Source: an uncultured Pelagibacteraceae bacterium
GTDB taxonomy: Bacteria; Pseudomonadota; Alphaproteobacteria; Pelagibacterales; Pelagibacteraceae
NCBI GenBank assembly: GCA_902614055.1
Contig: CACMJX010000001.1
Coordinates: forward strand, 1 to 64,000
Length of the DNA stretch: 64,000 bases
Reading direction: 5' to 3'
This document shows positions 19,423 to 34,524 of this stretch, piece after piece. The position numbers were made by a program, and so were the translations under genes. The notes beneath the pieces were generated by a model. That model searched no databases, was not told the origin of the DNA, and was given only the letters and a program-made list of their open reading frames with translations. Position 1 is the stretch's first letter. Each line of letters starts with the position of its first letter.

Positions 19423-19579
19423 CCTTTCGAAAGAACGGGATTAAAAAAACAATACATGCAATTAGAAAAAAAAGACTGCCAAACATAGCCCAAAAATTTC
19501 CTAAACTTGATATAATAAAACCCAACGCAGAAATAATGAATAAAATCCACCCAACTAAATTAATATTTTTATTACTCAT
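19406..19579 (-). CDS. Small two-helix membrane protein between blh and ispH, unknown
   Basis: From ATG at 19579 the product is 57 residues; a TTG at 19588 would add three. It has two hydrophobic segments (about residues 8-26 and 29-47) and an acidic tail KDESEE. No family is recognised. The start overlaps the blh stop by eight bases and the end overlaps ispH by 17, so it is locked between two retinal-pathway genes. The overlap pattern and the clean hydrophobic profile argue for a real gene. Confidence 0.65.
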   Translation of the reverse strand: MSNKNINLVGWILFIISALGFIISSLGNFWAMFGSLFFLIACIVFLIPFFRKDESEE

Positions 19580-20462
19580 TTTTTTCAATTAAATATTCGA
19601 GCAATATATGTGGAAAAGTCAATGAGGCCAATCCAATAAAAATTACTCGATATATAGTTTCATTAAATTCGTTATAATTATTCAGAATTGATATTGAAAC
19701 AACATATCCAAAAATTGTCAAAATTGTTAGTGGAAGGGCTTTTTTAATGAATATTGGCAATCCTTTTGTCAAATTTTTATTTATTTCTCTAATCAAAGAA
19801 ATTGAGTGCCTAATAGAATGTAAAAAGCAAAAGTAAATCGTAAAAGCAATTATTGGATTAAGAAAATAATTTAGGATTAGTATTGATATATAATCCATTA
19901 ATAACAATGACTTTGCTTCGAGACTTTTGTTTAACGATAAAATAATTCCAGAAATTAAAGATAATAAGATAAATATGAATAATATCTCATTAGATATTAT
20001 TAAATTATTTGAAATATAAAAATTTAATGTTTCGAATATTGCTAGCGTCTCTTCTTTGTGAAAAAATAAGGGTGAGGTAATTATTAAGGATCCTTTTAAA
20101 AAATAAATTAATTCAAAGTTTTTCTTTTGGTTAATAAACTCGGAGTCCTCTTTTCCAAAATGAAAAGCAGCTATAATTAAAAATAAGAAAAGTAATGATT
20201 TTGGAAATATTAACCAAATCAATATTATAATTGCACCAATAAGTAAATAACTCAAATAAAAAATACCCATTGATTTATATCCAAAATATTTAATCAGTTT
20301 TTTACCTTTAATATGATCTAGAGAACCATGAGATATTCCAATTGTTAAAATTAAAAACAACGAAATAAGTAAGAAACTGCCTTCTCTCAGATATTTTATT
20401 CCAGATAAAAGTATACACAAATTAAAAAAAATTAAAGAGTGGTAAAAATTAATTCTAATCAT
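19572..20462 (-). CDS. blh: Brp/Blh family beta-carotene 15,15'-dioxygenase
   Basis: The 296-residue polytopic membrane protein has the family histidines: GISHGSLDHIKG (H45, H50), AAFHFGKED near residue 100 and the LHSIRHSI pair near 215. Blh cleaves beta-carotene into two retinals, the chromophore of proteorhodopsin. It directly follows crtY, whose product makes the substrate. No opsin gene is in the window; in SAR11 genomes it usually lies elsewhere. The identification rests on motif pattern and context together. Confidence 0.92.
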   Translation of the reverse strand: MIRINFYHSLIFFNLCILLSGIKYLREGSFLLISLFLILTIGISHGSLDHIKGKKLIKYFGYKSMGIFYLSYLLIGAIIILIWLIFPKSLLFLFLIIAAFHFGKEDSEFINQKKNFELIYFLKGSLIITSPLFFHKEETLAIFETLNFYISNNLIISNEILFIFILLSLISGIILSLNKSLEAKSLLLMDYISILILNYFLNPIIAFTIYFCFLHSIRHSISLIREINKNLTKGLPIFIKKALPLTILTIFGYVVSISILNNYNEFNETIYRVIFIGLASLTFPHILLEYLIEKNE

Positions 20463-20466
20463 TTAT

Positions 20467-21531
20467 CTAAAAAAGTGCTTTAATAAAAATCCATTTAGGC
20501 ATTTTTAATATTATCGACAAATCTTCAAATAAATTACTTCTATTCGACAAAAATTTTATTACGGTATTAGATTTATTATTAAACATCCTAAAAAAAATAT
20601 TCGGCATTTTGCTTGGATTATTTTTAAGAACTTTTAAAAAAATATTATCAAGAAATTGATATTTTTTTTTGATTTTAAAAGTTTTCAATTTACTAATGTT
20701 TTCGATATTTTCTCTTATATATTTACTTTGCTCTTGAATATTTAGAAAAGTATAACCAGTACTTAACCTTGTCATACCACCAGCTGTTCCAATATTAATT
20801 TTATTTTTAACTTGGTCAATTGTTGGGTAAAAAAGAGGTATTGCACCCACTTCTTTGTATGTAATTTTATAATCTTTTATTTTAAGATTATTTTCAATGT
20901 ATTCTTTAATTTGCTGATCATAATCTTTTTGGGAATCGTCATTCATTTCTGATATCCAAGTTGTTTCAACTAATGCTGTTTTTTTTGAATATGGAAGTGT
21001 ATAAAAAAAATGAACACTTCCTCTCTGCTCACATTCAAAATCCATTAGGTTCATCATTTCTTCATCAAAAAATTCCTTTTTTGTTTCTATTTCTACCCCA
21101 CAGAAATGTTGCCAAAGACCAGAGTTTTGATTATCTAATTTTGGAACACTATTAAATACTAAAGAGTTATCAAAATTTATATTTTGATCATTTTTGTGAA
21201 AGGAAATATTTCTATTCTCTTTTAATTTATTGTTTATTTTTTCATAAAATAACCCACTATCAATACTTTGATACTGATAATTATCGCACTCTAGATGTCT
21301 AGTTTTTTGAGGCACATTTATTGAGAAATGTTTCCAATTTTTTTTTACACAATCCTCAAAATTATGTGGGAATGTTCTCCAAAAAGACCAAGTTTTATCT
21401 TTTTTATATTCATCTCTTGGCTCAATAATAGCTAAAGTTTTATTTTTTAACTTATTATTGATCTCTAACTCATATGCTAAAGATAAACCTGCGCAACCAC
21501 CACCAATTATGATAAAATCAAAATCTTTCAT
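20467..21531 (-). CDS. crtY: Lycopene beta-cyclase, CrtY type
   Basis: A 354-residue flavoprotein with N-terminal dinucleotide fold IIIGGGCAGLSLAYEL (residues 6-21), EPRDEYKKDKTWSFW near residue 37 (the CrtY-type WSFW motif) and GTAGGMTRLSTGYTF near 265. It cyclises both ends of lycopene to beta-carotene. The start overlaps the crtB stop by 14 bases, and blh follows after four bases. The order crtI-crtB-crtY-blh is a complete phytoene-to-retinal path except for crtE. Confidence 0.93.
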   Translation of the reverse strand: MKDFDFIIIGGGCAGLSLAYELEINNKLKNKTLAIIEPRDEYKKDKTWSFWRTFPHNFEDCVKKNWKHFSINVPQKTRHLECDNYQYQSIDSGLFYEKINNKLKENRNISFHKNDQNINFDNSLVFNSVPKLDNQNSGLWQHFCGVEIETKKEFFDEEMMNLMDFECEQRGSVHFFYTLPYSKKTALVETTWISEMNDDSQKDYDQQIKEYIENNLKIKDYKITYKEVGAIPLFYPTIDQVKNKINIGTAGGMTRLSTGYTFLNIQEQSKYIRENIENISKLKTFKIKKKYQFLDNIFLKVLKNNPSKMPNIFFRMFNNKSNTVIKFLSNRSNLFEDLSIILKMPKWIFIKALF

Positions 21532-22369
21532 TTAAATTTATTTCCTCACTAATTAATTCGTGTTCTTTATCTCTAAGGTGATTATGATTTTTAATCAATG
21601 ATAGTTTAAGCAAGTCATATATAGATAATAATGTTTGAAATATTTTGCCACTATTACTAACAAAAATTTTACCTGATTGGTTGTAATTTTGAATTGTTTG
21701 TTTCTTAATAATAATTTTACCAATTTGCCTATAAACTCTTCTTGCTACTAAAATTGAAAATCTAAGATTTAATGGAATATCCTTTATTGAAGAAAAACTA
21801 CTATCGTAAAATAAATCTGCAGTAGCCAATGTTTCTTTTATAGTTTCAAAATTATGTTTTATATAAAACCTTTGATTTTTAGAGTCCTCTATTACATCTC
21901 TTGAAATATTTGTAAGTTGCATAGCTATTCCCAAATCTATAGCCGATTTAAGAGACTTAGAGTTAGTGACATTTAAAATTTTTGCCATCATTAATCCAAC
22001 AGTTCCTGCTACTCTGTATGAATAAATTAATAATTCTTTTTTTGAACTTAATCTTATTTCATTTTGAATATCAGACTCCACACCATCGAATAAGTCTTCT
22101 ACAATTTTTGTAGAAATATCATATTCATCCATTAATACCCACATATTTTTGATTATATGGTTCTGAAATTCTTTATTGATAAAATTATTTTTGAAGTTTA
22201 AAAATCTTCTTAATTTAACATCAATTATACTTTCGTCGTCTGCTATATTGTCTAAAGTTCTACAAAAATCGTATAAATTAGAACATTTCAAATAAGTTTC
22301 TTTTGGAAGAAAAAAACCAGCCCAATTGAATGATTTTGCGTATATTGATAGAAAACTCTTTTTCTTCAT
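21518..22369 (-). CDS. crtB: Phytoene synthase
   Basis: The 283-residue squalene/phytoene synthase has the two aspartate-rich motifs: DNIADDE at residues 40-46 and ISRDVIEDSKN near residue 178. CRTLDNIADD and the YRVAGTVGLMM helix near 130 are typical. It condenses two geranylgeranyl diphosphates to phytoene. TAATG links it to crtI. The GGPP synthase that supplies the substrate (crtE) is not in the window. Confidence 0.93.
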   Translation of the reverse strand: MKKKSFLSIYAKSFNWAGFFLPKETYLKCSNLYDFCRTLDNIADDESIIDVKLRRFLNFKNNFINKEFQNHIIKNMWVLMDEYDISTKIVEDLFDGVESDIQNEIRLSSKKELLIYSYRVAGTVGLMMAKILNVTNSKSLKSAIDLGIAMQLTNISRDVIEDSKNQRFYIKHNFETIKETLATADLFYDSSFSSIKDIPLNLRFSILVARRVYRQIGKIIIKKQTIQNYNQSGKIFVSNSGKIFQTLLSIYDLLKLSLIKNHNHLRDKEHELISEEINLNERF

Positions 22370-23826
22370 TACAAAATTTTGTCTAAGACTTTTGCTGAAG
22401 ATAGTACTCCTGGTACACCTGCTCCAGGATGAGTACCTGCTCCAACAAAATATAATCCATCAAAAATCTCTGATTTATTATGAAATCTAAAATAAGCTGA
22501 TTGAGTAAATTTTGGTTGAATGGAAAAACCTGAGCCATATTTTGTATTTAACTCTTTCTCAAAATAATCAGGAGTTAAGTAAAAATCCTCAACAATATTT
22601 TCACTTAGGTTAGGTAGTAAACTTTCCTCCATTTTTTTAATAACTAAGTTTTTCATTCTATCTCCCTCAATAGACCAGTCTATGCCAGATTGATTATTAG
22701 GAACTGGTACCAACACATAAAAACAATCATGTTTATCAGGCGCCATCGATTTGTCTGTAGCTGTTGGTCTATGTAAGTAGTAACTAATATCCTCATTTAA
22801 TTTTTTATTGTTAAAAATATCGTCCAAGTGTTCCTTATACTTATCTCCAAATTTGATTGTATGATGTTCAACATTGTCGTAAACTTTTTTGGTTCCAAAG
22901 TAATAAACAAACAAACCCATTGAATATTCCATTCTTTTCATTTTCCAATTAAAAATAGAATTACTACTATTTGTGTTTGCTAATTTTGAGTAAACAGCAG
23001 GTGGATCTGCGTTACAAATTACATTATCTGTTTCTATTCTATCCCCATTGTTTAGTTCAATTCCGGTTATTTTATTTTTATTTGATATAATTTTATTTAC
23101 TTCGCAACCTTTTAATATTTTGATATTTTCTTCATTCATTAGTTTTTCCATGCCATTTATTATTTGACCAGTACCACCCATTGAATAATGAATTCCCCAT
23201 TTTTTTTCTAAATATAAAATCAATCCATATATTGATGTTGTTGTGAAAGGATTACCACCTACTAATAGTGGATGCATACTAAGTAATCTTCTTAATTTTT
23301 CATCTTCAATATAAGAAGAAACCAAACCATAAACAGATTTATAACTCTTTAGATTAAATAAAGAGGGTATTTGCTTTATCATAAAGGAAGGCTTGTCAAA
23401 TGGAACATCTGCAAGTTCTGTAAAGCCTTTATCAAAAATTTTTTTTGTAAAATTAACTAAGTTTTTATACCCGTTAACATCTTTTTCGTTTATCTTTTTT
23501 ATTTGATCAATCATCTCTTCTTCATCACCAGAATAGTCAAACTTAAAGCCATCTTCGAAAACAAATTGATACCAAGTTTTTAAAGATTTAATTTCTAAAT
23601 AATCTTTTGAATTTTTGTTAAAAAGCTGAAATAATTCATCAATTAGGTAGGGTGCTGTTATCACAGTTGGCCCACCATCAAATGTAAATCCATTTTTTTT
23701 AAAAACTCTAGCCCGTCCACCTAAATCTTGGTGTTTTTCAATTAAGGTCACATTATGGCCCTTAGCTTTTAACCTTAATGCCGCAGCCATACCCCCAAAA
23801 CCTGAACCTATTACTATCGAATTCAT
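22369..23826 (-). CDS. crtI: Phytoene desaturase (lycopene-forming)
   Basis: A 485-residue FAD enzyme with N-terminal VIGSGFGGMAAALRL (residues 5-19) and the CrtI C-terminal motif FVGAGTHPGAGVPGVLSSAK near residue 455. GGRARVF and FDGGPTVI near 40-55 match the bacterial CrtI family. It desaturates phytoene to lycopene. It is first in the carotenoid run and begins 44 bases after the atpF stop; I see no terminator in that gap, so read-through from the F0 genes is possible. Confidence 0.94.
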   Translation of the reverse strand: MNSIVIGSGFGGMAAALRLKAKGHNVTLIEKHQDLGGRARVFKKNGFTFDGGPTVITAPYLIDELFQLFNKNSKDYLEIKSLKTWYQFVFEDGFKFDYSGDEEEMIDQIKKINEKDVNGYKNLVNFTKKIFDKGFTELADVPFDKPSFMIKQIPSLFNLKSYKSVYGLVSSYIEDEKLRRLLSMHPLLVGGNPFTTTSIYGLILYLEKKWGIHYSMGGTGQIINGMEKLMNEENIKILKGCEVNKIISNKNKITGIELNNGDRIETDNVICNADPPAVYSKLANTNSSNSIFNWKMKRMEYSMGLFVYYFGTKKVYDNVEHHTIKFGDKYKEHLDDIFNNKKLNEDISYYLHRPTATDKSMAPDKHDCFYVLVPVPNNQSGIDWSIEGDRMKNLVIKKMEESLLPNLSENIVEDFYLTPDYFEKELNTKYGSGFSIQPKFTQSAYFRFHNKSEIFDGLYFVGAGTHPGAGVPGVLSSAKVLDKIL

Positions 23827-25194: not shown

Positions 25195-25929
25195 TTAATG
25201 GTGTAGATTTAATGCATCATTTAAATAAATGCATGTTAAAATTGCAAACACATAAGCTTGAAGAAAAGCAACTAATATCTCCAAACCTGTAAGTGCAACC
25301 GAAAAACTAAGTGGAAGCCACCCACCTATAATTCCTAAGCTTATAACAAACCCTCCAAATACCTTCATCATTGTGTGACCAGCCATCATATTAGCAAATA
25401 ATCTTACTGATAAACTAATTGGTCTACTTAAATAAGAAATAATTTCAATTACTACTATTAAAGGAAGCAGAACTATTGGAACCCCACTTGGTACAAACAA
25501 TTTTAAATATCCTAATCCATGTTTCATGAAACCAATTATTGTAACTCCAACGAAAATAAATGCTGCAAGCACAAATGTAACTATGATATGGCTTGTGACT
25601 GTAAATGCGTAAGGTATCATTCCGAACATGTTACAAAAAAGTACAAACATAAATAGTGAGAAAATAAATGAAAAGTAAGGTTTTGCTTTCGATCCCGCTG
25701 TATCACTGATCATTTTGGCGACAAAGGAATAACTTAATTCTGACAGTAATTGAAGTTTATCAGGTATTAGAGTTTTTTTCTTTGCTCCCAGATTGAAAAT
25801 TATTAAAATAGCCAAAGAACTAATGACCATAAACAAACTTGCATTGGTGAAAGAAATATCAACAGAGCCTAACTTAATTTCTGGACCAATCCGGTAAACA
25901 TTGAATTGGTACATTGGATTTGATGCCAT
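25195..25929 (-). CDS. atpB: ATP synthase F0 subunit a
   Basis: A 244-residue polytopic protein. The essential arginine lies in LSVRLFANMMAGH near residue 175, and the last helix has the Q in FLQAYVFAILT near 225. It forms the proton half-channels against the c ring. It starts 9 bases after atpI and ends 18 bases before atpE. Confidence 0.94.
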   Translation of the reverse strand: MASNPMYQFNVYRIGPEIKLGSVDISFTNASLFMVISSLAILIIFNLGAKKKTLIPDKLQLLSELSYSFVAKMISDTAGSKAKPYFSFIFSLFMFVLFCNMFGMIPYAFTVTSHIIVTFVLAAFIFVGVTIIGFMKHGLGYLKLFVPSGVPIVLLPLIVVIEIISYLSRPISLSVRLFANMMAGHTMMKVFGGFVISLGIIGGWLPLSFSVALTGLEILVAFLQAYVFAILTCIYLNDALNLHH

Positions 25930-25938
25930 TTTTCTATC

Positions 25939-26217
25939 TTATTTTTTTTGCATTTTTTTTGCTGATTTAATTACATTCATAATTCCTGCAATTACTCCTA
26001 CAAAAAAAAATATTAAAATTAACCAAGGCTTAGTACCAAACCAATTGTCTAAAATAAACCCAATAATTGTCCCAACAGCTACTGCTGCAACTAATTCTGT
26101 ACTCATTTTAAAAGCATGACCCATTCCTGATGTAGAAGGTTCTTTACTTTCAGAGTATTTAGATTTTGCTCTATTTTTTGCACTTTTAAGGCGAGTTTTA
26201 AAATCTTCTTCCTCCAT
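25939..26217 (-). CDS. atpI: ATP synthase protein I (AtpI/AtpZ-like)
   Basis: A 92-residue protein with a charged N-terminal half (about 45 residues) and two C-terminal helices containing GTIIGFILDNWFGTKPW, the typical AtpI pattern. AtpI assists c-ring assembly and, with AtpZ, may bind Mg or Ca. It lies four bases after smc and heads the F0 genes. Confidence 0.85.
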   Translation of the reverse strand: MEEEDFKTRLKSAKNRAKSKYSESKEPSTSGMGHAFKMSTELVAAVAVGTIIGFILDNWFGTKPWLILIFFFVGVIAGIMNVIKSAKKMQKK

Positions 26218-26221
26218 TAGC

Positions 26222-28795
26222 CTAAGCTACCATGCTCTCAGCTTTTTGAAGGTCAACTGCAACCAGTTGACTTATACCTTTCTCTGGCATCGTAACCCCG
26301 TATAATCTATCCATTTTTGACATAGTTAAAGCGTGATGGGTCACTATTATAAATCTTGTAGAAGTAATTTTTGTCAGTTCATTTAATAGATTGCAAAATC
26401 TTGTTACATTGGCATCATCTAGCGGTGCATCTACTTCGTCAAGTACACAAATAGGGGATGGGTTAGTAAGAAATACTGCAAATATTAGAGACAATGCTGT
26501 TAAAGCCTGCTCACCACCTGAAAGCAGAGTAATCGACTGAAGTCTTTTTCCTGGAGGGCTGACCAGCATTTCTAAACCTGCATCTAGTGGGTCATCAGAG
26601 TCCACGAGTTCTAATTTAGCGCTTCCTCCATTAAACAATTTCGTGTAAACCTCATTAAATTTTCTGTTCACTCTTTCAAAAGCATCTAACAATCTTTCTC
26701 GACCTTTTTGATTGAGTTTTGTTATGCTCTCTTTTAGTTTAAATATAGCTGTAACAAGGTCTTGTCTATCTTGTTCCATTTTTTTTATTTCAGTTTTATA
26801 TTTTTCAGTTTCATCATCTGCTCTTAGGTTAACAGATCCAAGTTTCTCTCTTTCTCTCTTTTTTTCATCTAGTAACTCTTCTTGAGTGACTAAGTCAGGA
26901 AATTCAGCATCATTTTCAAGATTAGAATAATTAAGTATATTGCCTTCTTCAACATTCAAATCTGTCATCACTCTTTCTAAAAGATCATTTCTTCTTTTAT
27001 TTAAACCTTCAATTGTTGCTCCAGAGCTTGCTTTCTTTTCTCTAATTTCAATTGAATTTTCTTTTGTGTTGTTTAATTGGTTTCTAATTTCTGAAATATT
27101 ATTATCAATTTTTTCAACTAAAATTTCATTCTCATTTTTTTCATTTTCTGAAATTCTTAAGTTTTCAGAAATTTTCCCTTTTTTTTCTGCTTGAGATTGA
27201 GGTTGTGTTTCCAGAGCATTCAATTTTTCTACGAGCTTATTTTTTCTCGTATTGAGTTCACTAACCATTTTTTCAGAATTAGTTAAAAGACTTTGCCAGC
27301 TTTCGAATTCTTTATCAATTATACTTATTCTTTCTTTTCTTTTGACAGACTCATTTTTTATGTTTTGATTTTTACTGTAAGTTTCAGCATAATCATCTTG
27401 TAATTTTTTTATTTGATCACTTTTTGATGTTAGAGTTGAAATCACATTGTCATTCTCAACTTCTTTAACTTTCATAGTTAAATAAGACAAGTCAATTATA
27501 CATTCATCTAAAATTTTTATTGTCTGATGGTTTCTATCTTCTGAAATTAGTTTTTTAACTTCTTCAATTTTACTTTTTATGTTGTAAATAATTTCATTAT
27601 TTTTTTGCAAAGATACAGCGCTAAAACTCTCTAATAATTCATCAATTCTATCTTGCTCATTTTTTAATTTTGATTTAGATTTTTCTAGATCTTGATTGGA
27701 AAGTTTCTCTGTTTCATAATATTTTGAATCTGTATCAATTAAGATATTTCTCTCCTCTCTTAATCTTTTTTCGTTTGAATTTGCATCAATTACTATGCTT
27801 TTTTCTCTATCTATGTCCTCATCTATAACTTTTATAGAACTTTTTATTGTATCTATTTCCTCATTTATTCTACTACTTTCCTCATCTAAAGCTTTCAGCT
27901 CAAGGTTTAATCTTTGAATCTTAGATAAATTTTCAATATTTTTTTGTCTTATTGGCTCTACTCTCTCAATTTCATTTTTAATTTTATTTTCTAATTCTTC
28001 AATTTGTTTATTAAATTTCTCTACTTTTACATCTGCCTCATTATTTACCTCACTTTCTAAAGTGATTTCTTTATCAATTTCTAGAAGTCTTAAATAATAA
28101 AGCCCTGCCTCAACTTTTTTTATTTCTTCTGAAATTGATTTATATTTTGCAGCTTCCTCAGCTTGTTTTTCTAAATTTGCTAATTGTTTTTCCTGTTGTC
28201 TTCTAAGCTCGTCGGCTCTCTTTAAATTATTTTCTGCTGCTCCTAATCTAATTTCAGCTTCATGCCTTCTAACATGCAAACCGGCTATTCCAGCAGCTTC
28301 TTCAAGTATAGCTCTTCTGTCAGATGGTTTTGCTGTAACTAATGCCCCAATCCTGCCTTGACTGATCAATGATGGTGAATGAGCCCCTGTAGACAGATCT
28401 GCAAAAAACATTTGTGCATCTTTAGCTCTAACTTCTTTGTTATTTATGTAAAACTTTGATCCTTTATCTTTCTCAATCTTTCTACGAATTTCTATTTCAT
28501 CTAGATCATTGTATTGGTGTGGTCCATCTTTGTTATCATTGTTTAAACTTAAAACTACTTCAGCAATATTTTTTGATGGTTTATTTGATGTACCTGAAAA
28601 TATTACATCCTCCATTCCAGAACCCCTCATACTTTTCGCTGAAGTTTCTCCCATGCACCATCTAAGAGATTCAACTATGTTTGATTTGCCGCAACCGTTA
28701 GGCCCGACAATTCCTGTAAGACCTTTTTCAATTAAAAAGTTAGTTTTCTCCGCAAAAGACTTAAAGCCATTTAATTGGATTTTTTTAAACTCCAT
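26222..28795 (-). CDS. smc: SMC chromosome segregation ATPase, unusually short
   Basis: The ends are clear SMC: Walker A GPNGCGKSN at residues 31-39 and the Q-loop region GRIGALV near 148, then C-terminal signature LSGGEQALTAL near 766 and Walker B CVLDEVDAPLDDAN near 795. Coiled coil fills the middle. The total of 857 residues is about 300 below typical bacterial SMC (around 1150-1200). I cannot find the conserved glycine-rich hinge; the centre holds a short helical segment (about residues 395-450) between coils. SMC with ScpAB compacts and separates the replicated origin regions. The gene lies between dsbA-like and atpI genes with gaps of eight and four bases. Confidence 0.92.
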   Translation of the reverse strand: MEFKKIQLNGFKSFAEKTNFLIEKGLTGIVGPNGCGKSNIVESLRWCMGETSAKSMRGSGMEDVIFSGTSNKPSKNIAEVVLSLNNDNKDGPHQYNDLDEIEIRRKIEKDKGSKFYINNKEVRAKDAQMFFADLSTGAHSPSLISQGRIGALVTAKPSDRRAILEEAAGIAGLHVRRHEAEIRLGAAENNLKRADELRRQQEKQLANLEKQAEEAAKYKSISEEIKKVEAGLYYLRLLEIDKEITLESEVNNEADVKVEKFNKQIEELENKIKNEIERVEPIRQKNIENLSKIQRLNLELKALDEESSRINEEIDTIKSSIKVIDEDIDREKSIVIDANSNEKRLREERNILIDTDSKYYETEKLSNQDLEKSKSKLKNEQDRIDELLESFSAVSLQKNNEIIYNIKSKIEEVKKLISEDRNHQTIKILDECIIDLSYLTMKVKEVENDNVISTLTSKSDQIKKLQDDYAETYSKNQNIKNESVKRKERISIIDKEFESWQSLLTNSEKMVSELNTRKNKLVEKLNALETQPQSQAEKKGKISENLRISENEKNENEILVEKIDNNISEIRNQLNNTKENSIEIREKKASSGATIEGLNKRRNDLLERVMTDLNVEEGNILNYSNLENDAEFPDLVTQEELLDEKKREREKLGSVNLRADDETEKYKTEIKKMEQDRQDLVTAIFKLKESITKLNQKGRERLLDAFERVNRKFNEVYTKLFNGGSAKLELVDSDDPLDAGLEMLVSPPGKRLQSITLLSGGEQALTALSLIFAVFLTNPSPICVLDEVDAPLDDANVTRFCNLLNELTKITSTRFIIVTHHALTMSKMDRLYGVTMPEKGISQLVAVDLQKAESMVA

Positions 28796-28803
28796 TCAAT
28801 GAC

Positions 28804-29385
28804 TTATATCAGTTTTTCTATATATTTTTTTAATTTTTTATAGTTAGATGAATTTTCGAACTTTTCGCCATTGATTATAAGTGTTGGTGTTGCCTCTATT
28901 TTGTAGTTTTTAGCTCCATTGATTCGGTCTTCTAAAATAAAATCTTCAATTTTTGAGTCTGCTATACATTTATCAAAATCTAATTTGAAATTTGATTCTT
29001 GAATTACCTTTTTTAGATTTTTGTTGAGATCCTCAATTGTGCTTCCTCTTACCCAGCTACTTTGATTTTTATACAAATGATGAAGTATCTCTGAATTTCC
29101 ATCATTTTTACAATGAGCTATTTTTGATGCATTAAATGCAGCCATATCTAATGGAAAATTTCTAAATTCGATTAAAATTAAACCTTTGTCTATAAAATCA
29201 GTTTTTAAACTAGGGTAAACATTTTTATGGAAATCTGCACAATGACTACATGTTAAAGACTCAAAAACTATCAGTTTTACTTTTGCATCGACATTACCCT
29301 CAGTAATAGATTTAATATTTGCTTTAGCATTATGTATTACAAAAAATAATGAAATAATAATTGTTTGTATTAGTATTTTTTTCAT
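28804..29385 (-). CDS. DsbA-like exported thiol oxidoreductase
   Basis: The 193-residue protein has a signal peptide (about residues 1-22, ending in NAKAN), a thioredoxin-fold CSHC active site at C46-C49 in SLTCSHCADFH, a helical insertion and the cis-proline in EATPTLIING near residue 167. It is of the DsbA/Com1 type and acts in the periplasm to form or transfer disulfides. It overlaps the DciA-like gene by four bases and precedes smc. Confidence 0.9.
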   Translation of the reverse strand: MKKILIQTIIISLFFVIHNAKANIKSITEGNVDAKVKLIVFESLTCSHCADFHKNVYPSLKTDFIDKGLILIEFRNFPLDMAAFNASKIAHCKNDGNSEILHHLYKNQSSWVRGSTIEDLNKNLKKVIQESNFKLDFDKCIADSKIEDFILEDRINGAKNYKIEATPTLIINGEKFENSSNYKKLKKYIEKLI

Positions 29386-29861
29386 CTTGATTTAAATATT
29401 TTATTTAATTCTAACAAAGATTTTTTAATTTTATCATTCTTAATATTCGTTATCTGCTTAATATTTTTGCTTTTTGTCGCATTATTTATTTTGTTTTCTT
29501 TAATTTTTTTAAACTCTCCCTCAAAAGTTTTTAATTTAATATCATCGACTACATTATAACCAAAAAATATATTAATTTTTTTTATTATTTCTTTCTTAGA
29601 GTACTCTAAATCTACTTCATTTCCTCTTTTGACCATTATATTTAAACAGCTCCCATTTAATTTTGAATTTTTATATGATCTTGGGAAGGATACATTAAAT
29701 AATTCTTTGCCAACAAGAAATTTCCAATTATCCAAAGTTTTTGAATAAATTTGACCTTTTTTATTCAATATTCTTTTGGCTTCTTGGGGCAAAGTATCTT
29801 TAAAAGATCTTAGTCCTTGAACAGATTTAGTTCTCTGCTTAGTATTATATTTAAAATTCAT
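29382..29861 (-). CDS. DUF721/DciA-like protein
   Basis: I place the start at ATG 29861 (159 residues); a longer open frame to 29954 runs antisense into mutY and its extra 31 residues look unlike the family. The region with DNWKFLVGKEL and NGSCLNIMVKRGNEVDLEYSK matches the DUF721 core, the KH-like fold of DciA, a loader of the replicative helicase DnaB. The C-terminus is lysine- and asparagine-rich. The start codon directly abuts the divergent mutY start (CATATG). Confidence 0.72.
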   Translation of the reverse strand: MNFKYNTKQRTKSVQGLRSFKDTLPQEAKRILNKKGQIYSKTLDNWKFLVGKELFNVSFPRSYKNSKLNGSCLNIMVKRGNEVDLEYSKKEIIKKINIFFGYNVVDDIKLKTFEGEFKKIKENKINNATKSKNIKQITNIKNDKIKKSLLELNKIFKSR

Positions 29862-30848
29862 ATGACAAGTCAAAACATACCAAATAAAATTTTGAATTGG
29901 TACGATAATAATAAAAGAGACCTTCCTTGGCGAAAAAAAGTCTCTAGAACTCAAAAAGAATATTTTACGTTAGTCAGTGAATTTATGTTGCAGCAAACGC
30001 AAGTGAGGACTGTGATACCATATTTTGAAAATTTTATTTCTAAAATCCCAGACTTAAAAACTTTATCAAAAGTAAGAGATGCTAAATTGATGAAATGTTG
30101 GGAAGGATTAGGGTATTATTCAAGAGCCAGAAATCTAAAAAAATCAGCAAAACAAATTATAAATGAATTTAAGGGTCAGCTTCCAAAAAATGAGGACGAT
30201 TTAAAATCACTACCTGGAATAGGGGATTATACATCTAAAGCAATTATGGCAATTGCATTCAATAAAAAAATAATTCCTTTAGATGGAAATGTTGAAAGAA
30301 TTTTAAAAAGAATATTTTATTTAAAAAAAGAAAAAGAAATTTCTAAAGAAAATTTACACAAAAAAAAATTTTTTTTTGGGGAAACAATTAGAGCTAGCGA
30401 TTATGCTCAAGCTATTATGGAAATAGGTGCACTAATCTGTAAACCATCCAATCCACTATGTTATCAATGTCCCATCTCAACAAATTGCAAATCCTTTAAA
30501 AAAAATGACTTTGAAATAATTAAAATAAATAAATTTAATAAACAAAAGTTTTTTGAAGCAAATATTTTTCAAAATAAGCAGAATAGTTTCTATCTTTTAA
30601 AAAACAGGAAATTTAACTTTTTAAAAGATATGCCTATATTCCCCATGAATGAGATACCTAAGACAAAATTTAAAAATCATTTAGGAAAAAGGATCAATAT
30701 AAAAATGTCAAATATGGATATGAGAATTGCAATTAATATGAAAAATAATTTACAAGAGAAGAAGGATGGATTTTTTATTAATGTTAAAGATTTAAGGAAT
30801 TGGACTTTACCTTCGTTTACAAAGAAAATACTTAATAGTATCAAATAA
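29862..30848 (+). CDS. mutY: A/G-specific adenine DNA glycosylase
   Basis: From ATG 29862 the product has 328 residues. The catalytic E40 lies in SEFMLQQTQV, the helix-hairpin-helix in LPGIGDYTSKAIMAIAF near residue 118 with catalytic Asp in PLDGNVERI, and the 4Fe-4S cysteines in CKPSNPLCYQCPISTNC near 193-209 (spacing C-6-C-2-C-5-C). It removes A opposite 8-oxoG. An in-frame upstream ATG at 29817 would add 15 residues inside the divergent gene. The C-terminal domain is short and poorly conserved. Next gene follows after four bases. Confidence 0.93.
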   Translation: MTSQNIPNKILNWYDNNKRDLPWRKKVSRTQKEYFTLVSEFMLQQTQVRTVIPYFENFISKIPDLKTLSKVRDAKLMKCWEGLGYYSRARNLKKSAKQIINEFKGQLPKNEDDLKSLPGIGDYTSKAIMAIAFNKKIIPLDGNVERILKRIFYLKKEKEISKENLHKKKFFFGETIRASDYAQAIMEIGALICKPSNPLCYQCPISTNCKSFKKNDFEIIKINKFNKQKFFEANIFQNKQNSFYLLKNRKFNFLKDMPIFPMNEIPKTKFKNHLGKRINIKMSNMDMRIAINMKNNLQEKKDGFFINVKDLRNWTLPSFTKKILNSIK

Positions 30849-33598: not shown

Positions 33599-34524
33599 TC
33601 TTCACTAATCTTGCTGTTGGGATCTGTAATATCCCTCAATCCGTCTCCCATCATATTTATAGATACCACTAGTGTGAAAAGTGCAATACCAGGCAAAATA
33701 ATTAGCCAAGGTTGAAAAAAAATCGCTTCTTTTCCTTCAGCTATAAGTAATCCCCATGATGGCGTAGGTGGTTGAATTCCAACTCCTAAGAAAGATAAGC
33801 TTGCTTCATTTAAAATGGCAATACCTACCTCAAGAGTGAAAATTACAATAATTTGACTGAAAGTATTCGGAATTATATCTCTCATAATAATCTGAAATTT
33901 ACTTGCACCAATTGCTCTAGCCGAAGTTACATAATCTAAATTTTTTATTTTTTGAGTTGCTGATCTAGAAACGACTAAAAAAAAAGCCCAATGAGTTGCT
34001 CCTATTACAAATATGACTACTGTTATTGATGGTCCTATTAAAAAAACAATTGTCATTGCGAGTAAAAGTCCAGGCAATGCTAATTGACACGTAAGTAAAT
34101 AGCTTACAATTTGGTCAACCCAACCCCCAAAGTAACCTGCACAAACGCCTAAAGTTACACCAATTATCATGCCAACACATGCTGCCCCAAAACCTATGGT
34201 TAATGAAATTCTTGTTCCATATAAGATCCTTGCAAAATAATCTCTTCCATTTCCATCTGTTCCAAAAATATATTCCCAACTTCCACCCTCTTTCCATACT
34301 GGTGGCAAAAGTCTTTTAGTTAAATCTTGCTCATAAGGTGATACGTCCAAAATTATTGGTCCAAATATTGCAAACAAAAAAATTATAATTAATAAAGCTA
34401 ATCCAAATTTAAACCCACCATGATTTGAAGATTTCCTTATAATAAGGTCTTTTGGTGTTAAATTATAAATGTCATTATCAAAAGATCTTGGAAATAATCT
34501 TTTTATGAAAGTTTTAAATATCAT
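33595..34524 (-). CDS. ABC transporter permease, DppC/OppC type
   Basis: A 309-residue membrane protein with an N-terminal charged tail, first helix near residue 40-60, and the EAA loop with RAIGASKFQIIMRDIIPN near 205. The FGTDGNGRDYFARILYGTRISL motif near residue 90 is typical of the DppC/OppC family. It pairs with the DppB-type permease upstream (four-base overlap). Confidence 0.92.
   Translation of the reverse strand: MIFKTFIKRLFPRSFDNDIYNLTPKDLIIRKSSNHGGFKFGLALLIIIFLFAIFGPIILDVSPYEQDLTKRLLPPVWKEGGSWEYIFGTDGNGRDYFARILYGTRISLTIGFGAACVGMIIGVTLGVCAGYFGGWVDQIVSYLLTCQLALPGLLLAMTIVFLIGPSITVVIFVIGATHWAFFLVVSRSATQKIKNLDYVTSARAIGASKFQIIMRDIIPNTFSQIIVIFTLEVGIAILNEASLSFLGVGIQPPTPSWGLLIAEGKEAIFFQPWLIILPGIALFTLVVSINMMGDGLRDITDPNSKISEE

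Follow-up and report, generated by a model that had tools for sequence, protein, structure and literature searches.

A short SAR11 Smc without a detectable hinge and with a predicted helical hairpin in the hinge position

Models of SMC action presuppose a dimer that is locked at the hinge. SMC proteins without a hinge are known from marine Actinomycetes, where they were called a new kind of biology; in the portion of that paper available to us, no regular SMC accompanies them in the genomes screened, and they branch within Actinobacteria in the authors' own tree (Sussfeld 2025, PMC12153180). SAR11 and Pelagibacter go unmentioned in the main text of the same paper, and SMC does not occur in the accessible part of a SAR11 phosphoproteome paper (PMC13198564). 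In Bacillus subtilis, growth was normal when a Rad50 zinc hook took the place of the Smc hinge (PMC5344682, partial text). Since a zinc hook can stand in for the hinge, it seems that in that organism nothing more is required than that the far ends be joined. We found no report of a hinge-less SMC in SAR11 in the literature searched, which left out most subscription journals and all preprints.

SAR11 bacteria are very abundant in the ocean. The window analyzed here, a stretch of 64,000 nucleotides from an uncultured Pelagibacteraceae bacterium, holds an smc gene on the minus strand (26222..28795, ATG start). As originally predicted, its open reading frame encodes an SMC ATPase of only 857 residues with intact head motifs at both ends. 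The protein scores 665.8 bits against TIGR02168 (SMC_prok_B; cutoff, 567.35), a model under whose cutoff some relatives of 809 to 817 residues fell in the genome search, as split matches. The N-terminal half of the ATPase head (about residues 1 to 165; 28301..28795, minus strand) carries the Walker A motif GPNGCGKSN (residues 31 to 39; 28679..28705, minus strand), which is invariant in alignment A2. The C-terminal half (about residues 691 to 857 and the stop codon; 26222..26725, minus strand) carries the ABC signature LSGGEQ (residues 758 to 763; 26507..26524, minus strand) and a Walker B motif with D-loop, PICVLDEVDAPLDDA (residues 781 to 795; 26411..26455, minus strand). Both halves were assigned by TIGR02168 and by PDB matches, solved Smc heads being retrieved with a profile of the 857-residue protein and 20 hinge-less relatives; their boundaries are estimates, the N-terminal one by analogy. 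The source genome (1.17 Mb, 78% complete) contains a single smc copy.

A frameshift or assembly error, raised in the original prediction as what might have removed a hinge, was ruled out. All 80 named loci (Pelagibacteraceae, Pelagibacterales, or Candidatus Pelagibacter, i.e., SAR11) have an intact smc frame of exactly 857 codons, and intact genes encoding 798 to 881 residues occur in five one-contig genomes (G012, G373, G291, G375, and G471). In-frame stops do interrupt smc in three draft genomes that are 55 to 85% complete (G014, G015, and G059), as a frameshift, a truncated assembly, or a pseudogene might lead one to expect. We nevertheless give an artifact virtually no credence, since it is refuted by the one-contig genomes, by 105 distinct intact proteins of exactly 857 residues (pairwise identity down to 71%), and by purifying selection. 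The pN/pS ratio was 0.02 to 0.23 in 40-residue windows of the head, averaged 0.21 and 0.26 in the two arms, and was 0.60 at the tip (JC-corrected dN/dS of about 0.36); these ratios and the identities given below come from the 20 of 128 sequences that were left after removal of those at least 93% alike.

The gene order in the window is mutY, dciA, dsbA, smc, atpI, atpB. On the upstream side lie genes for a DsbA-like thioredoxin (28804..29385, minus strand; PF13462), DciA (DUF721; 29382..29870, minus strand; PF05258), and a MutY-like glycosylase (29847..30848, plus strand; PF00730), the start codons of the last two having been chosen; downstream are atpI (25939..26217, minus strand; PF09527) and atpB (25195..25929, minus strand; PF00119). 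Among 26 other loci, 16 of them outside SAR11, the dsbA-smc order was found in all 26 and smc-atpI-atpB in 23, the atp genes being absent from the stretch examined at L260 to L262. MutY was detected in 23 of these loci and DciA in just 11; thus, dciA is often missed or absent. The neighborhood is common to hinge-bearing smc genes (e.g., L249 to L251 and L257 to L259), to short hinge-bearing ones, and to smc of f25, a second lineage discussed below. Because it is shared with hinge-bearing alphaproteobacteria, the SAR11 gene is the vertical copy and not a paralogue. Near the ATP synthase genes, the window also holds a retinal pathway cluster (19572-23826, minus strand) with a beta-carotene dioxygenase, a lycopene cyclase, a phytoene synthase, and a flavin amine oxidoreductase-family protein that is probably phytoene desaturase.

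The original prediction had asked after scpA and scpB, and both proved to be present, side by side, elsewhere in the source genome (ScpA, 244 residues; ScpB, 229 residues; matches at G000:C7:34420-35073 and 33887-34348). Across the order, ScpA was found in 45/61 genomes and ScpB in 47/61; in the 18 most complete, the counts were 15 and 16. No parS site was found within the window.

That no hinge lies between the coils was the central claim of the original prediction, with the Pfam hinge model PF06470 as the proposed check on the protein and its relatives. This model was absent among the Pfam matches of the 857-residue protein up to an E value of 10 and from the Pelagibacterales genomes scanned (0/61). 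PF06470 is weak in Alphaproteobacteria, however: it missed the Caulobacter control and matched 91/289 genomes of the class, some of the other 198 seeming to be without a full Smc. We thus rejected PF06470 alone as proof of hinge loss and built a class-specific profile, A3, from an alignment of 24 alphaproteobacterial hinges (motif GQxxVxxxGxxWRWDG), 22 of which singly match PF06470 at an E value of 0.01. A3 matches one solved Smc chain (5h69; E = 1.5e-5). Run against 60 chosen whole genomes, it detected the hinge in all 21 control alphaproteobacteria, including seven that had contributed nothing to the profile (E values from 4.5e-37 to 4.3e-59; one shares a genus with a contributor). It found no hinge in 38 Pelagibacterales genomes representing all nine genera (0/38), inside or outside SMC, and G488, a genome of f25, likewise gave no match. 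Thus, a homologous hinge is missing from these genomes both in cis and in trans, and the claim is confirmed.

Alignment with the full-length Smc of genome G093 places the loss. The 857-residue form lacks the equivalent of residues 394 to 738 save about 53 residues, and the 798-residue form lacks 381 to 754 save about 23; the missing part comprises the hinge (about 505 to 634 in G093) and about 104 to 125 coil residues on each side of it. The original prediction had offered shortened coils with a very reduced hinge. Its first half is borne out, as coil is missing on both sides of the hinge and the arm spacings described below agree. The second half does not fit: the middle is predicted to be all helix, and the 798-residue sister form retains only the 23 or so residues mentioned above.

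Short Smc proteins that keep the hinge do exist, so total length alone cannot decide whether a hinge has been lost. Those of f32 (865 to 866 residues; L246 and L247), f142 (882; L243), f51 G354 (936; L244), and f61 G265 (984; L245) have lost only arm, in a roughly mirror-image manner about the hinge, and on their account we rejected the equation of short with hinge-less. We also rejected a route to hinge loss via short-armed, hinge-bearing ancestors, as such groups are not adjacent to SAR11 in the trees. One might argue that the SAR11 middle is a hinge diverged past recognition, given that alphaproteobacterial hinges already match PF06470 poorly and that short-armed relatives of near-equal length (865 to 882 residues) do bear one. 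A3, however, matches these short relatives at E values of 4.2e-44 to 3.7e-47 (their own hinges being in the profile) and SAR11 not at all. The all-helical prediction, which is of high confidence, and the scant space in the 798-residue form also speak against a diverged hinge, a reading already disfavored, and we regard it as very improbable. The 857-residue protein is almost certainly a true hinge-less Smc.

The hinge-less form extends across the order. P0001 matched 140/148 Pelagibacterales genomes; the eight without a match are 91 to 97% complete, and assembly gaps are the likely reason. One genome, G432, gave a weak match only (E = 4e-4). In the first sample, smc was matched in 50/61 genomes. 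Among the matches listed, open frames not cut by a contig end had 799 to 891 codons in both families. SMC sequences from all nine genera sampled have 798 to 881 residues, and the lengths of hinge-less SMC in Pelagibacterales are discrete (798, 809 to 814, 857 to 864, and 880 to 881). The AT-rich lineage f25 (GC at the locus, 23% in G488 and 30% in our genome) was matched in 5/6 genomes, the unmatched one being 54% complete; four of the proteins have exactly 817 residues and the fifth has 803. These proteins lack the hinge as well, G488 by alignment and A3 and the others by aligning to G488 without a hinge-sized insert.

How often the hinge was lost depends on the position of f25. Pelagibacterales form a single clade in the heads tree (98/99); with proximal coil added, their branch is weak (69/36) and lies beside a long hinge-bearing branch. 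The proximal-coil tree groups SAR11 and f25 weakly, with the long branch of the hinge-bearing f10 G092 inside (82/85), and the heads-only tree does not group the two. An AU test did not reject a single SAR11-f25 clade (p = 0.25), and the loss in f25 is perhaps separate. Among the matches listed for 299 genomes sampled across the phylum, no other hinge-less SMC occurred, and the other Smc frames had at least 1138 codons. The hinge-less Smc profile had no match in five complete genomes of one alphaproteobacterial genus, f72 g224 (G367, G641, G647, G658, and G745), of which G367 gave a weak TIGR02168 match (1.7e-5); loss of smc is possible there. Small genomes of the class, including G089, G090, G094, and G104, likewise gave weak TIGR02168 matches (E values of 7e-4 to 4e-8 for these four), and Smc may be absent from or very divergent in such genomes.

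In place of the hinge, AlphaFold2 predicts a distal cap (27446..27628, minus strand). A run on residues 340 to 500, with an alignment of 37 sequences that are 48 to 93% identical to our protein, gave helices at 341 to 389, 393 to 418, 422 to 448, and 451 to 499 and no strand (mean pLDDT, 93.0; pTM, 0.66). The cap consists of a break at 390 to 392, the helix from 393, a turn at 419 to 421 that forms the apex (27533..27541, minus strand; its motif is common to the 798-residue form), the helix up to 448, and a second break at 449 to 450; the hairpin is almost exactly the short helical segment that the original prediction had seen near residues 395 to 450. It is flanked by the N-terminal arm (about residues 166 to 389; 27629..28300, minus strand), with a predicted helix at 157 to 389, and by the C-terminal arm (about residues 451 to 690; 26726..27445, minus strand). 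A whole-protein run agreed with the segment run in the arms and modeled the heads poorly (pTM, 0.29); thus, only the middle segment was used.

Nowhere in the protein is conservation lower than in the cap, where mean identity is 38% versus 77% and 72% in the arms. Conserved hydrophobic residues make one coiled-coil seam (396, 403, 406, 410, 413, and 417 with 429, 432, 436, 439, and 443), and further ones lie by the apex (416, 426, and 428). Among 25 sequences, the hydrophobic content of the second cap helix exceeds that of 96% of equally long segments of the arms, and that of the first helix exceeds that of 89% of them; a second hydrophobic stripe is partly kept, positions 428, 434, 438, and 441 being hydrophobic in 100, 68, 76, and 56% of the sequences. 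This pattern permits a tip interface. A Foldseek search with the middle segment gave no match at E < 0.001 and retrieved generic coiled-coil hairpins, the best match being an Smc5/6 arm (E = 0.014). No CxxC occurs between the heads in 16 hinge-less alignment rows or in the 105 distinct 857-residue proteins (residues 171 to 690), and the only cysteines of our protein are residues 35, 47, 432, 783, and 801. In the sister SAR11 family f2 (L206 to L209), the distal module carries a conserved tryptophan motif, YDDPxxWTxIFxxKFY, that differs from the Pelagibacter cap.

Arm length is constant within clades. At the 80 named loci, chosen by best match to the 857-residue query (a choice that favors equal length), smc is constant at 857 residues, and the products of neighboring genes range from 191 to 211 (dsbA), 159 to 190 (dciA), and 263 to 345 residues (mutY), a spread that stems partly from taking the first possible start codon. 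Over 52 aligned rows from SAR11, f25, and hinge-bearing alphaproteobacteria, the E229-E331 spacing in the N-terminal arm is 102 in every row and the W500-N656 spacing in the C-terminal arm is 154 to 159 (52/52; the W500 column holds another residue in nine rows). In a second alignment, of family f2, the two spacings are 164 to 165 and 165. The remaining variation falls mainly between E331 and W500, a distance of 110, 123 to 124, 127, 169 to 172, or 195 to 196 residues in hinge-less forms, 178 to 293 in short hinge-bearing forms, and 402 to 471 in longer ones.

Length steps between clades come in mirror-image pairs, as expected if the rod consists of two antiparallel strands in a fixed register. 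Counted by eye, the 857-residue form has 29 more residues than the 798-residue form on the N-terminal side of the common apex motif and 30 more on the C-terminal side. Compared with four sisters, the f25 genome G239 has one 7-residue gap per arm (columns 291 to 297 and 500 to 506), at mirror positions about approximately 398.5; these gaps lie inside the otherwise constant proximal arms and are an exception to their constancy, yet a symmetric one. The constant 857 residues despite a variable tip, together with the mirror-image steps, suggest at the sequence level that the rod is length tuned and its geometry under selection. Taking the heads as about 165 residues per end, we estimate the SAR11 arms at about 233 to 274 residues. 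The natural modes of SMC arm length are given as 238, 341, and 515 residues and the working range of engineered B. subtilis Smc arms as 253 to 267 (PMC5344682, partial text); the SAR11 estimate is near the first mode and the engineered range.

The reading that we favor is an ordinary, vertically inherited SAR11 Smc-ScpAB ATPase that has lost its hinge and whose hairpin-capped rods meet at their tips; as a whole, this statement has about an even chance of being right. The rod would have lost its outer third along with the hinge and been closed again by the short helix-turn-helix cap. Retention of heads, kleisin, and kite leads us to expect that ATP drives the engagement of the heads as usual and that DNA is handled normally at that end, and the SMC motor would still work, with the kleisin bridging the heads and with rod-shaped arms. 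The far ends of two rods would meet via the hairpin caps and neighboring coil, in a contact that is probably less strong than a hinge and opens more readily, and the DNA contacts that a hinge mediates would have to be missing or else be made by heads and arms. The original prediction's alternative, that with the hinge lost dimerization or ring opening would work differently, fits the findings.

Tip-to-tip contact in place of the hinge is itself a tentative element, for which we put the prospects a little short of even: the low conservation of the cap, the lowest in the protein, is unusual for a specific interface, and the second stripe of hydrophobic residues is incompletely retained. The same fast evolution of the tip (38% identity, pN/pS of 0.60) would suit an open-ended clamp, in which there is no distal junction and the Smc pair is held at the heads by ATP and ScpA-ScpB. 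The lack of a hinge profile match in cis or trans and of CxxC between the heads also agrees with such a clamp, but the exact length and mirror-image indels suggest that the position of the far end matters, and the conserved hydrophobic residues cluster by the apex (416, 417, 426, 428, and 429); we consider it rather unlikely. Retention of heads, kleisin, and kite may mean that a closed ring is still wanted, which a separate, unrelated protein could provide by bridging the tips as a nonhomologous hinge in trans. The neighbors of smc, however, are ancestral genes, and the genomes searched yielded no homologous hinge domain, candidates having been sought within the hinge family only; a bridging protein seems to us distinctly improbable.

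In SAR11, the hinge has been removed order-wide while heads, kleisin, and kite are kept and arm length is exact to the residue within clades; thus, what the hinge is for becomes testable with natural proteins. The clades that differ by mirror-image steps (29 + 30 and 7 + 7) form a natural arm-length series beside the engineered one of B. subtilis. The chances seem evenly balanced that, in a whole free-living order, Smc-ScpAB works with hairpin-ended arms whose closure is weak, tunable, or absent, so that the hinge would be unneeded in nature, with at least two marine losses (SAR11 and, from the accessible text of PMC12153180, Actinomycetes) and perhaps a separate one in f25.

Among known systems, the SAR11 protein is most like the Smc of Smc-ScpAB in its head motifs, proximal spacings (102 and about 156), gene neighborhood, and accompanying ScpA and ScpB. 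Unlike hinge-bearing alphaproteobacterial Smc (about 1150 residues), it has no hinge, and its distal module between the fixed marks spans 110 to 196 residues in hinge-less forms versus about 460 in those proteins. With Rad50/SbcC it shares an SMC-like head, a coiled-coil rod, and the lack of an SMC hinge, but it has no zinc-hook CxxC, and the Rad50 cutoffs are far above its scores; no MukB model was among the best 25 of its 36 matches. Like the engineered Mini-Smc and Smc(Zh) of B. subtilis, it combines shortened arms with another cap for the hinge, although the zinc hook of Smc(Zh) is a strong engineered dimer and the SAR11 cap is a plain helical one (PMC5344682, partial text). The SAR11 and Actinomycetes proteins share the SMC head and coil, a marine habitat, and the absence of both a hinge and a CxxC motif, as far as the available text of the latter's description goes (PMC12153180). 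Synteny and trees indicate that the SAR11 Smc is the alphaproteobacterial ortholog, which speaks against membership in the actinobacterial clade. Beyond what the actinobacterial case offers, SAR11 shows the trait throughout an order, with stepwise differences in arm length and with ScpAB.
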